This document shows positions 46,306 through 63,715 of a DNA stretch of 64,000 nt, piece by piece. A program made the translations under genes and the position numbers. This DNA comes from Verrucomicrobiota bacterium (GTDB taxonomy: Bacteria; Verrucomicrobiota; Verrucomicrobiia; Limisphaerales; UBA9464). The stretch is from the NCBI GenBank assembly GCA_947454705.1, contig CANGKZ010000001.1:186001-250000 (forward strand), read 5' to 3'. Positions within the stretch are counted from its first letter, which is position 1. The number at the start of each line of letters is the position of its first letter. The notes beneath the pieces are model-generated. The model ran no database searches. It saw only the letters and a program-made list of their open reading frames with translations, and had not been told where the DNA came from.

Positions 46306-48276
46306 TTAAATGGGGTTACCGCAGGAGGGATGAATGGGCGATTCGGGTGCCGTGGAGGTGTTGGTGGGCTGGCTTCGACGCTTGAGCCACACCAACAGGA
46401 GGGCCACATCGGCAGGTGAAACGCCGGAAATCCGGTTGGCCTGGGCGATGGTGGTGGGCTGGATGCGCATGAGTTTCTGACGCGATTCTTCCCGGATTCC
46501 GGGCACCGAGGCGAAGTCGAACCCTGCGGGAATGGCCCGTTCTTCCAGATCCCGGAAGCGCGCCACTTCGAATTCCTGACGCGTGATATAGCCCTCGTAC
46601 TTGATGGAGATCTCCACCTGTTGGGTGATTTCCTCGGACAAAACGGGGCGTTCGCCTGGCAGCGTGTCGTAGGTGACCTCGGGACGACGCAGGAGCTGGG
46701 CGAGGGAATCCTGACCGATCCGCGTGCGTTCCAGCCGTTCGCGCTCGGCTTTTACCGCCTCGGCCTTCGCTTGGTAGCGCTTCAACAGACGCTCCGGGAG
46801 TAGGCCGATCTCGTGTCCCAGCGGGCTCAGTCGCTCGTCGGCGTTGTCCTGCCGCAGCAGCAATCGGTACTCCGCGCGTGAGGTGAACATGCGGTACGGC
46901 TCCTGGGTGCCCTTGGTGACCAAGTCATCGATCAGCACACCGATGTACGCCTGGTCGCGTCGGAGAACGATCGGTTCCTTCCCCTGCACGCGCCGAACGG
47001 CATTGATCCCGGCGACCAGACCCTGAGCCCCTGCTTCTTCGTATCCGGACGTTCCATTGATCTGACCGGCGAGGAACAGGTTCCGACACACCTTGGTCTC
47101 CAGGCTCGGGAGGAGCTGCGTGGGCTGGCAGAAGTCATACTCTACGGCGTAGGCCGGTCGCATGATCTCCGCCTTCTCGCATCCGATGATGCTTCGAACC
47201 ATTTCGATCTGTACCTCGAAGGGCAGGCAGGTGGAGAAGCCGTTGACGTAGATCTCGTCCGTGTTGATCCCTTCGGGTTCGAGGAAGATCTGGTGATCCT
47301 CCTTCTCGGCAAAGCGGACGAACTTGTCCTCGATGCTCGGGCAGTAGCGCGGTCCCACCCCCTCGATCACGCCGGAGTACATCGGGGAGCGATGGAGGTT
47401 CGCGGTGACCAAGTCGCGGGTCTTGGGAGACGTCCGGGTGAGATAACACGGAAGCTGGGTCCCGATGCGGCTGAGGATGGAACCCGGGGGGTACCGGAGA
47501 TTCGAGGCGCCGGGGTCCGCGGTGCGGGGTCCGGCGTACGATTGTTCCACGTGGAACAGTTCGTCGTTCCACAGGTCTTCCTTCCAATAGGTGAACCAGG
47601 GAACCGGCTCGTCGCCGCCCTGAGGTTCGCATTGGGTGAAATCGATGGATTGTCGAACGAGCCTCGGTGGGGTGCCGGTCTTAAGCCGTCCGAGTTCGAG
47701 CCCCACTTCCTTGAGCGAACCCGACAGCCCCATGGCGGCCGCCTCACCGGCCCGACCGCCGGTCTGCTGGTTCGCCCCCACGTGCATGAGTCCGCGGAGG
47801 AAGGTGCCGGTGGTGACCACCACGGTGGTGCTCAGGAACTGGACTTCGAGGCTGGTCTCAACTCCGTACACCGCGCCGTCCTTGTGGAGGAGTCGCACGG
47901 TCTGGCCCTGCTTGCAGTCGAGATTGGGTTGGCGTTCGCAGACCCATTTGAGTCGGAACTGATACGCCTTCTTGTCGCATTGCGCCCGGGGAGCCCAGAC
48001 GGCGGGTCCCTTCTTGGTGTTGAGCATCCGGAACTGCAGCCCGGACATATCGGTCGCCCGACCCATCTCGCCACCCAGGGCGTCGATCTCCCGCGCGAGG
48101 TGTCCCTTGGCCAAGCCGCCGATGGCGGGGTTGCAGGACATCTGCCCGATGGTGTCGAGGTTGATGGTGAGCAGAAGCGTCTGACACCCCATACGAGCCG
48201 AGGCCAGGGCCGCCTCGACCCCGGCATGGCCGGCCCCGACGACAATCACGTCGTATCGCTTCGGATAGACAAACAT
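46306..48276 (-). CDS. mnmG: tRNA uridine-5-carboxymethylaminomethyl modification enzyme MnmG (GidA)
   Basis: 656 residues from ATG 48276 (48288 also possible). The FAD loop VIVVGAGHAGVEAALAS, the CNPAIGGLAKGHLAREID box, TGTPPRLVRQSIDF, and the GidA block FLAGQINGTSGYEEAGAQG are all present. A C-terminal helical domain follows (ERAIPAGFDFASVPGIREES). With MnmE the enzyme modifies the wobble uridine of certain tRNAs. In many bacteria mnmG lies near the origin beside rsmG, parA and parB; here neither is seen, but a parS-like palindrome occurs inside the coding sequence (47543) and two more upstream. Confidence 0.96.
   Translation of the reverse strand: MFVYPKRYDVIVVGAGHAGVEAALASARMGCQTLLLTINLDTIGQMSCNPAIGGLAKGHLAREIDALGGEMGRATDMSGLQFRMLNTKKGPAVWAPRAQCDKKAYQFRLKWVCERQPNLDCKQGQTVRLLHKDGAVYGVETSLEVQFLSTTVVVTTGTFLRGLMHVGANQQTGGRAGEAAAMGLSGSLKEVGLELGRLKTGTPPRLVRQSIDFTQCEPQGGDEPVPWFTYWKEDLWNDELFHVEQSYAGPRTADPGASNLRYPPGSILSRIGTQLPCYLTRTSPKTRDLVTANLHRSPMYSGVIEGVGPRYCPSIEDKFVRFAEKEDHQIFLEPEGINTDEIYVNGFSTCLPFEVQIEMVRSIIGCEKAEIMRPAYAVEYDFCQPTQLLPSLETKVCRNLFLAGQINGTSGYEEAGAQGLVAGINAVRRVQGKEPIVLRRDQAYIGVLIDDLVTKGTQEPYRMFTSRAEYRLLLRQDNADERLSPLGHEIGLLPERLLKRYQAKAEAVKAERERLERTRIGQDSLAQLLRRPEVTYDTLPGERPVLSEEITQQVEISIKYEGYITRQEFEVARFRDLEERAIPAGFDFASVPGIREESRQKLMRIQPTTIAQANRISGVSPADVALLLVWLKRRSQPTNTSTAPESPIHPSCGNPI
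47543..47558. promoter_or_regulatory. parS-like site 1 (inside mnmG)
   Basis: TGTTCCACGTGGAACA, a perfect 16-bp palindrome differing from the common parS TGTTTCACGTGAAACA at two paired positions. ParB loads at such sites to organise the origin region for segregation. Confidence 0.75.
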
Positions 48277-48414
48277 CGGACGAAGCATGAACGGTCGTCG
48301 GATTTTCGCCAGTCCGGGTGCATGTTTGAGATGCCGGCAAATGAATGGAACCGCAGAGACGCGGAGGCGCAGAGAGGAGAATGAATGGTGGGGCGAGGAA
48401 AGGGGTGTTCGAAA

Positions 48415-48430
48415 TGTTCCACGTGGAACA
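48415..48430. promoter_or_regulatory. parS-like site 2
   Basis: TGTTCCACGTGGAACA, identical to the other two copies; intergenic, upstream of mnmG. Confidence 0.8.
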
Positions 48431-49028: not shown

Positions 49029-49499
49029 TTATCGGCGGCGGTCGAGGGTAGCAATCAGACCAAGGGTGGTTGCGAGGGCCATCAGGACCACTCCGAGGAC
49101 CACCCCTTCGCGATGACCCCGCCAGGCGGGATTCATCAGAATCCAACCCGCGAGCGCCACGAGTATGGCGTCAGCTCCGAGGAGAATCCGCGGAATTGGG
49201 CTGTTCTTGCCGATTTCCGCAGTCTTGGGCTCCAACGCAACGCCAGGCGCACGGGCCCCGACTGAGCTCGGACCAGTGGGCGCTTGAGCCAATCCTGGGG
49301 TCAAGACACTGGGGACGCCACCCGAGGCCGAGGGCACCGGAGATGGAACCGTCCCGGGCTTCGTAGCGGAATCAGCCGGGGTAGAAGCGGAATCCCCGAT
49401 AAGCACGCCAAAGCCACGGGAGGTGGGACGCTTGGCGTCCTTCCCGTTCTTCGGCTCCATCAGCGACCCGAGGCCCCGACCCAGTCCAGAGGTTGACAT
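49029..49499 (-). CDS. Small membrane protein with ParB-type GLGRGL boxes
   Basis: 156 residues from ATG 49499. It starts MSTSGLGRGLGSLM, very like the N-terminal ParA-contacting box of ParB proteins (GLGRGL followed by small and hydrophobic residues). A second, weaker copy, RGFGVLIG, lies at 28-35. A Pro/Ser/Ala-rich linker of ~65 residues follows, then two transmembrane helices (about 105-122 and 132-151) and a basic tail DRRR. There is no ParB DNA-binding domain. Three parS-like sites lie within 2 kb. It might tether a ParA-type ATPase at the membrane; this is inference. A longer frame upstream (to 49724) overlaps the leader of the divergent gene and is not favoured. Confidence 0.65.
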   Translation of the reverse strand: MSTSGLGRGLGSLMEPKNGKDAKRPTSRGFGVLIGDSASTPADSATKPGTVPSPVPSASGGVPSVLTPGLAQAPTGPSSVGARAPGVALEPKTAEIGKNSPIPRILLGADAILVALAGWILMNPAWRGHREGVVLGVVLMALATTLGLIATLDRRR

Positions 49500-62334: not shown

Positions 62335-62479
62335 GGGTTGAGATTACGAGGAATCGGTCGGGGTGCGAGTCCGAGTTGTGCGCAACGAATTGGGAGCAAC
62401 CCGGGAAATGACTGTGAGTTGGAGTCGAGAATCTCGGTCGGTCCCTGAACCGATGGGGTTATGCAGAGCCCTTCCCAGA

Positions 62480-62553
62480 CTGTTCACAATCCGAAACCCG
62501 CTTGAGAGGGCCGTGGAATGGACCACTACCGGCTGTTGTACGTGTTGTTCACA
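62480..62553. promoter_or_regulatory. DnaA-box-like sites upstream of dnaN
   Basis: TTGTTCACA (62545-62553) is one change from TTATNCACA, and CTGTTCACA (62480-62488) is weaker. Both lie in the M2/dnaN divergent region. They may regulate dnaN; no dnaA gene is seen. Confidence 0.35.
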
Positions 62554-62605
62554 CCCCCTACTAATGGCTTTCTTCTTTCAAAGAACAATCAATACTAGGC
62601 ACCCG

Positions 62606-63715
62606 ATGAAACTCACAATTGCCAAGGAGCAGCTCCTGACCGGCCTTCAGGCAGTTCAAAATGTTGTCGGTACCCGGACGACGCTGCCCATCCTCTCGAA
62701 CGTGCTCTTGTCGGCCGCCGACGGTCGCCTCGAGCTGACAGCCACGGACTTGGATGTCACAATTTCCAGCAACGCCGCCGCGACCGTCACAGAACCCGGC
62801 CGGGCCACGTTGCCGGTCAAGAAGCTCTTCGGCATCGCCCGCGAGCTTCCGGCCTCCGAGATCGAAATCGAGATCGACGAGAAGGCGGTCTGCTCGCTGC
62901 GGGCCGGCGCCTCGTTCTACAAGATCAACGGCCTCCCCGCCGATGAATTTCCGCCGATGCCGACCTTCAAGCAGGCTCGCGCGGTGACGGTGCCGCAGGA
63001 CAAGCTCCGTTTGATGCTGAAAAAGACGAGCTTCGCGGTATCCACCGACGAGACCCGTTATGTGCTCAACGGCATCTTCTTTAGCCTTAAAGAACACAAA
63101 GTAACGCTCGTGGCGACCGATGGACGTCGTCTGGCGATGACCGATGAGGAAGCCGATGTGCCGGCGGAAAGTCAGGCCGACTTTATCGTTCCGACCAAGG
63201 CGATCAACGAGCTGAACCGCCTTCTCGCCGGAACGGGAACGGTGGAAATGAAGTTCTCGGACAACCAGGTGGCGTTCACCACGAAGGCCGACAATGGGTC
63301 GGGCGTACTGATCATCAGCAAGCTGGTGGATGGCAACTACCCGAACTATCGCCAGGTGATCCCGGGCGAATGTCAGGAGCGCGTGGCCCTGCCCCGCGAA
63401 GAGTTCCTCGGGGCGCTGCGTCGTGCCGAACTGATGACCAGCGACAAGAGCAACTCGGTGAAGCTGACCCTCAGCCGCAACCAGCTGGCCATCACCGCCA
63501 ACACCCCGGAAGTGGGCGAAGCGCGCGAAGGTCTGGCCATCAACTACAAGGGAAAGGACTTCGCCATCGCCTTCAACCCGGGCTACCTGATGGACCCGCT
63601 GAAGGCGCTCGACACCGAGGAAGTCTTCTTCGAGTTGATCGATGAATTGAGCCCGGGCGTGGTGAAGACCAACACGCCGTTCCTGTACGTGATCATGCCG
63701 ATGCGCATGAGCTGA
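62606..63715 (+). CDS. dnaN: DNA polymerase III beta clamp DnaN
   Basis: 369 residues from ATG 62606. The three-domain clamp pattern is clear: MKLTIAKEQLLTGLQAVQNV, TLPILSNVLLSAADGRLELT, ATDLDVTISSNAAATV; then YVLNGIFFSLKEHKVTLVAT, DGRRLAMTDEEADV; and the end TPFLYVIMPMRMS, the canonical P-M-R tail. It forms the sliding ring for replication. A terminator follows at 63742. The upstream in-frame extension to 62363 is not real. Confidence 0.98.
   Translation: MKLTIAKEQLLTGLQAVQNVVGTRTTLPILSNVLLSAADGRLELTATDLDVTISSNAAATVTEPGRATLPVKKLFGIARELPASEIEIEIDEKAVCSLRAGASFYKINGLPADEFPPMPTFKQARAVTVPQDKLRLMLKKTSFAVSTDETRYVLNGIFFSLKEHKVTLVATDGRRLAMTDEEADVPAESQADFIVPTKAINELNRLLAGTGTVEMKFSDNQVAFTTKADNGSGVLIISKLVDGNYPNYRQVIPGECQERVALPREEFLGALRRAELMTSDKSNSVKLTLSRNQLAITANTPEVGEAREGLAINYKGKDFAIAFNPGYLMDPLKALDTEEVFFELIDELSPGVVKTNTPFLYVIMPMRMS

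Follow-up and report, generated by a model that had tools for sequence, protein, structure and literature searches.

The window, i.e., the whole 64,000-nucleotide stretch of DNA analyzed here, belongs to the genome assembly GCA_947454705.1 of a Verrucomicrobiota bacterium of the order Limisphaerales (hereafter the order). On its reverse strand, a gene for a protein of 156 residues was found together with mnmG and three predicted parS sites (Table 1). The translation of this gene (MSTSGLGRGLGSLMEPKNGKDAKRPTSRGFGVLIGD...DRRR*) confirmed the coordinates and the reading proposed in the first-pass annotation, and the start codon is supported because the orthologues align from that Met. In the protein, MSTSGLGRGLGSLM...RGFGVLIG... 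is succeeded by a linker and then by two hydrophobic helices. In the AlphaFold prediction, which was made with six sequences, regular structure was absent before residue 102 and the helices spanned residues 102–122 and 130–155; the model had a mean pLDDT of 56.5 and a pTM of 0.25, the helix blocks being at a pLDDT of 73–83. Two adjacent hydrophobic helices of this kind correspond to a predicted integral-membrane helical hairpin. The divergently oriented upstream neighbor looks, by eye, like an aldo/keto reductase gene. A frame at 62363–63715, which we presume by eye to be dnaN, lies approximately 13–15 kb from the parS cluster.

Table 1. Features of the locus, in positions of the window.
Feature	Position	Strand	Basis
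Gene for the 156-residue protein (with stop codon)	49029..49499	-	Orthologues align from Met; purifying selection
Box 1, residues 5-14 (GLGRGLGSLM), ParB-type ParA-binding motif	49458..49487	-	LG-R/K-GL kept in the nine nearest relatives; profile as ParB N-termini
Box 2, residues 28-35 (RGFGVLIG), often xGVxxLLxG in the family	49395..49418	-	Counts versus shuffled linkers
Predicted membrane helix 1, residues 102-122; its Asp110 does not vary among 45 members	49134..49196	-	Alignment and model
Predicted membrane helix 2, residues 130-155	49035..49112	-	Model
Predicted parS site, 18 bp past the stop codon	48995..49010		Pattern search
Predicted parS site, intergenic between the 156-residue gene and mnmG	48415..48430		Pattern search
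Predicted parS site inside mnmG, encoding ...LFHVEQ...	47543..47558		Pattern search; mnmG loci
mnmG (gidA), downstream of the 156-residue gene on the same strand	46306..48288	-	Reading frame; relatives

A Pfam scan of the window protein returned no family at an E value of 1, and the Pfam and NCBIfam scans of 45 members of its family gave only weak hits, each to one or two members and none to a ParB family. The ParB_N (PF02195) CTPase fold, the helix-turn-helix for parS and the C-terminal dimerization domain were all sought in the 156-residue protein and none was found, the linker and the hairpin being all that follows the boxes. The window protein is thus no member of the ParB family in any domain, the motif alone excepted, which bears out the earlier proposal of a ParA-contact motif detached from a DNA-binding domain and placed on two membrane helices. 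No Pfam or NCBIfam family covers the protein, and the family is an unnamed one.

The ParA-binding motif of the ParB family is defined as LG-R/K-GL, or (L/F/I)G(K/R)G(L/F/I), in the accessible part of a published account (PMC12704722), and box 1 fits this definition, as the first-pass annotation had supposed for GLGRGL. Conservation of the motif in orthologues had been named there as a check, and the N-terminal box turned out to be present in all of the 62 members read (45/45 aligned and 17/17 fetched afterwards), with the strict LG-R/K-GL in 50 of them (38/45 and 12/17). In the other 12, either the first Leu is replaced with Met (two members) or the second Gly is replaced with Ser, Asp, Asn or Lys (ten members). 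The alignment of 45 excludes L150, which nearly duplicates L145, as well as L155 and L159, which were set aside as ParB. The N-terminus of the family is mostly M(S/A)K(P/S)(A/G)LG(R/K)GLGSL(L/M), with MSKxxLGRGLGSLL as its short form. We compared it with the ParB sequences of 26 genomes (26 loci from 29 matches; L222, L223 and L224 were left out, and G004 and G007 had no ParB match). The ParB N-terminus in the order is MSKPALGRGLGALL, in which L, G, R, G, L, A and L are invariant at positions +0 to +4, +6 and +7, and the box of the 45 members and the ParB sequences have L0, G1, R/K2, G3, L4, L7 and L/M8 in common. A steady difference lies at +6, which is Ala in 26/26 ParBs versus Ser in 23/45 and Ala in 2/45 family members; at +2, the family has Arg in 35/45 and Lys in 10/45. 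In a six-frame search of the whole genome, the family profile matched the N-terminus of the ParB of the same genome with an E value of 1.2e-5. The DNA motif of the box alone is not special, as a degenerate DNA pattern matched the genome 33 times versus 30 times for its reversed control; special are its N-terminal place and its conservation. In the M. xanthus motif, according to the accessible part of the source, large hydrophobic residues are needed for ParA binding and the central Arg for activation, Lys occurs in about half of ParBs, and an Arg-to-Lys change retains most of the binding and lowers activation (PMC12462528). Judging from the alignment, the family retains the residues needed in the M. 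xanthus motif, with the Arg/Lys variation likewise.

The second box, RGFGVLIG, which had been noticed at the outset in the window protein, is a family-wide feature and more important than was then thought. The pattern G-(VLFMIA)-x-x-hydrophobic-hydrophobic, often xGVxxLLxG, was found in the linkers of 38/45 members versus 2.1 expected from shuffled linkers. This rule was drawn up with the first 45 sequences in view, and the fair test is provided by the 17 members read later: with the rule unchanged, 16/17 matched versus 0.62 expected. No recognizable box 2 was found in G003 and G005. Box 2 is similar to GLGSLL, the latter half of box 1, and the doubling would fit with each chain serving both sites of a ParA dimer with its two peptides.

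Searches with a profile of nine and then of 45 members detected full-length matches (model start at most 4 and end at least 118; counted by hand, with the 45 modelled sequences included) in at least 99 of the 320 genomes of the order, representing 27 of its families; of the 54 members outside the 45, 17 were read. About two-thirds of the 320 genomes have no full-length match among the matches listed, and ParABS can therefore do without the gene. In a sample of 387 genomes of the phylum, no full-length match was found except in the genome of the window itself, at the sensitivity of a search that scored at most 10 first-look candidates per genome; the other matches in this sample were N-terminal parts of ParB-size frames or hairpins in mostly longer frames. 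All of the eight genomes of the genus g1 (G000–G007) possess the gene. Among the nine nearest relatives, M1, L6, G7, G9, L10, L13, D110, L113, W119 and L146 are invariant, even though the identity of the other eight to the first is 23–49%. Whole-gene dN/dS was approximately 0.19–0.34 in four pairs of genus relatives, two of which are near saturation in dS. In the 14 box codons, G000 and G001 differ by six synonymous changes and one replacement change; the pair of G004 and G002 is uninformative for the box, since it has no synonymous change and one replacement. The members at L142 and L148 bear an extra C-terminal stretch past the hairpin, ...RFVVHLQ... or ...HFVMHLQ....

The hairpin is homologous to that of larger Verrucomicrobia proteins of approximately 280–400 residues (L195:4723–5601; L190:5334–6230; L118; L106), with which it has the two helices and the conserved Asp in common. 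In contrast to the window protein, the larger proteins carry the hairpin at the N-terminus, have another C-terminal part and lack the ParA box. L195, from within the order, comprises an N-terminal hairpin, coiled-coil-like sequence and a GrpE-like end (a Pfam match to GrpE); L190, encoded in the window's own genome, and L118 and L106 are of the same type by eye. Outside the order, the hairpin proteins read in three genomes, L192–L194 (390–540 residues), have an N-terminal hairpin and coiled-coil-like sequence followed by a different C-terminal domain. A conserved C-terminal stretch, ...IGIGNKxYxRGxGxGLSW...GKWRW..., was seen in L192–L194. For hairpin matches in frames of at least 260 residues, our reading covered the loci named here. 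When a hairpin-only profile was applied to frames shorter than 260 residues, 61 of 64 among the matches listed (a hand count, in which the 27 family hairpins included in the profile match by construction) fell at the places of box carriers, and the remaining three were two of the larger hairpin proteins, truncated at contig ends, and a short hairpin protein without the box. In G141, one hairpin match lies approximately 20 kb from parS.

In the genome of the window (G000), ParB_N had a single match, on contig C29 (L001), and the search with AAA_31 found one canonical ParA, on contig C18 (L156); parA (C18), parB (C29) and parS (C1, the contig of the window) are therein located on three separate contigs. 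We aligned this ParA with 8ray_B, which we take, together with the numbering of the pocket, to be M. xanthus ParA on our own reading of the D60A change. Of the four residues of the pocket for the motif's arginine, Tyr, Asp and Glu are kept and the fourth (Glu82) is Arg. The same genome contains four further frames of 737–785 residues matching AAA_31, two of which were read and begin with membrane-like segments, as well as what we presume to be an Mrp-like ATPase and an Ffh-like GTPase. A ParB was identified in 26 of the 28 genomes searched, whereas parA was located in the window's own genome only. In 26/26 genomes compared, parB and the family gene are on different contigs or separated by more than 1 Mb, and no ParA- or ParB-like frame was found in the 35 neighborhoods of the family gene scanned.

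The three perfect palindromes TGTTCCACGTGGAACA lie within 1.5 kb of the gene, in accordance with the initial report of three parS-like sites within 2 kb. This sequence has one mismatch to the parS consensus. Apart from these three sites, the 5.4-Mb assembly has no match to TGTTNCACGTGNAACA, and the reversed pattern has none at all; as expected from the sequence of a chromosomal parS, the sites are 16-bp palindromes in few copies, all at mnmG. Exact 16-bp palindromes of the form TGTTNCACGTGNAACA were found, one to three per genome, in 26/28 relatives, with none for the reversed control in 28/28; no exact parS site was found in G059 and G085. The exact site was on the contig of mnmG in 23 of the 26 genomes, the look-up of mnmG having covered all but the other three (G141, G123 and G180). 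Furthermore, 35/40 other mnmG loci read (L052–L091) have a parS site inside the coding sequence of mnmG in the same context, at +691 or +706 from the estimated start and in the same frame, where the local sequence is mostly ...W..xLFHVE(Q/H). By sequence, this internal site is likely a conserved centromere inside a protein gene.

The family gene is directly upstream of mnmG and parS in 7/8 of the g1 genomes; in the eighth, G007, the region is broken by contig ends, the gene being close to the end of one contig and parS and mnmG opening a second. The gene is also adjacent to parS in both g8 genomes (G014 and G020) and in the g9 genome G023. As a property of the family, however, the closeness to parS put forward in the first-pass annotation fails: in 16/16 genomes outside g1, g8 and G023 in which both places are known (G009, G010, G011, G012, G013, G016, G018, G024, G030, G037, G055, G098, G112, G123, G141 and G180), the gene and parS are on different contigs or no less than 64 kb apart. 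The single-contig genome G141 has the family gene at 1.94 Mb, parS at 3.73 Mb and parB at 4.14 Mb, i.e., 0.4 Mb between parB and parS and 1.79 Mb between the gene and parS; in G123, also a single contig, parS (2.75 Mb) is followed by the family gene (2.81 Mb) and then by parB (4.04 Mb), 1.3 Mb from parS. The refutation by non-adjacency is a weak one, since in the genomes compared parB is not near parS either, and synteny has little power as a test here. In the tree (159 columns; 14 open forks among 42 inner branches), ten of the parS-adjacent members form one supported group (95/94), the long-branch sequence of G023 is placed elsewhere, and the parS-adjacent members thus need two changes; the simplest account would be one move to parS, perhaps two. 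Among the 35 loci away from mnmG that were compared, the neighbor genes differ and no pointer to function was obtained from them. The most recurrent neighbor there is a frame of 1,088–1,111 residues located 0–125 bp upstream on the same strand in 6/35 loci (L122, L123, L129, L130, L139 and L154), and the two of those six frames that were scanned have SNF2 and helicase C domains.

On the basis of the conserved boxes and the hairpin, we favor, with reasonable though far from full confidence, the reading in which the window protein is a membrane-anchored partner of ParA, with ParA itself as the target. The anchored protein probably activates ParA: activation is favored because the Arg is retained and the box is doubled. 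The disordered N-terminus, with both ends of the protein presumably in the cytoplasm, carries the ParA-binding motif of ParB and, some 15–30 residues further on, the shorter hydrophobic box, and the two-helix hairpin with its conserved Asp would anchor the protein, probably dimeric or oligomeric, in the inner membrane. ATP-bound ParA dimers near the membrane would dock their ParB-binding pockets on the boxes. In the case of ParB, strong activation of ParA needs two juxtaposed N-termini. The two boxes of a chain, or neighboring chains, may supply such juxtaposed peptides, upon which ParA would hydrolyze ATP and release DNA, or else stay held at the envelope. In this way, the protein would act at the membrane as a sink or anchor for ParA, competing with ParB and shaping the ParA gradient.

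Among the alternatives, the one that survives best, albeit an unlikely one, is that the box occupies the ParA pocket without triggering hydrolysis, leaving ParA stored or blocked at the membrane. The departure from the invariant Ala of ParB at +6 would agree with such a decoy, as would the Lys found at +2 in a minority of members, given the behavior of the Arg-to-Lys change in M. xanthus, but the Arg is kept in most members and two boxes per chain suit activation. A little less likely still is another partner, either a different P-loop ATPase or the larger hairpin proteins, with the likeness to ParB stemming from a shared ancestral peptide or from convergence. The hairpin also occurs in larger proteins of the order, including one with a GrpE match, and the genome also encodes the long AAA_31-matching frames and the presumed Mrp-like and Ffh-like proteins; on the other hand, motifs of this type belong, in the accessible parts of the published accounts, to chromosomal ParABS systems, the pocket being largely missing in MinD, and only one canonical ParA was found in the genome. 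We regard as improbable a tether of the origin by location, in which the nascent membrane protein would tie the parS region to the membrane during translation and the box would be secondary: the gene is directly beside the only parS cluster in g1 and g8, but in other lineages, such as G141, it lies elsewhere and the box is still kept. The least credible alternative is that there is nothing special in the box, for although its DNA pattern is about as common as the reversed control, a chance motif is contradicted by conservation in every member read across the order and by purifying selection, and a truncated parB by the absence of any ParB-domain trace and by a hairpin related to other proteins.

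Returning to the membrane-anchored ParA partner, we tentatively put forward a broader proposal, which we hold to be rather less probable than its opposite. The protein could be a fourth component of ParABS in the order, namely an activator of ParA at the envelope that mimics, with two boxes per chain, the closed ParB clamp and has moved beside parS in one clade; its hairpin may pair with the membrane hairpin of the GrpE-like proteins and so link segregation to a chaperone. The setting-up of the ParA gradient and the holding of the origin near the envelope are known in a few model bacteria, where they operate via polar scaffolds. Altogether, our analysis suggests an unrecognized link between chromosome segregation and the cell membrane in one Verrucomicrobia order. 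A small membrane protein with the ParA-binding peptide of ParB would link the membrane and the segregation motor directly in this little-studied order and extend the known uses of the motif past the ParB-CTPase fold, and motif searches outside ParB domains can yield new candidate partners of ParA.

In the literature covered on ParA/ParB, the ParA-binding motif, membrane proteins and Verrucomicrobia, with subscription papers mostly outside its scope, no protein of this kind was recognized. The chromosomal ParB (ParB/Srx CTPase) bears the LG-R/K-GL peptide at the same N-terminal place, whereas the window protein lacks ParB_N, the helix-turn-helix and the dimerization domain, has the membrane hairpin and box 2, and in its family mostly has Ser instead of Ala at +6. 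PomX, PomY and McdB, partners of ParA/MinD ATPases, have a short, charged and disordered N-terminus presumed to contact the ATPase (PMC10241942), to which the N-terminal peptide of the window protein, with its predicted disorder, may correspond; they serve other cargoes, however, and none of them is described in the literature covered as carrying a ParB motif on a membrane hairpin. The closest functional likeness, by analogy, appears to be PadC of Myxococcus xanthus, which in the accessible parts of its descriptions recruits ParA on bactofilins and has a ParB-like CTPase domain (PMC5703909; PMC12704722). Like the window protein, PadC is distinct from ParB and reportedly has a ParA-binding motif; it recruits ParA to a cell structure, as the window protein may do. 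In contrast to PadC, with its ParB-like CTPase domain and its binding to the cytoskeleton, the window protein lacks a domain of this type and is predicted to be a membrane protein itself. Thus, the best explanation of the features described here would be a ParA partner of the kind of ParB and PadC but without a ParB domain.
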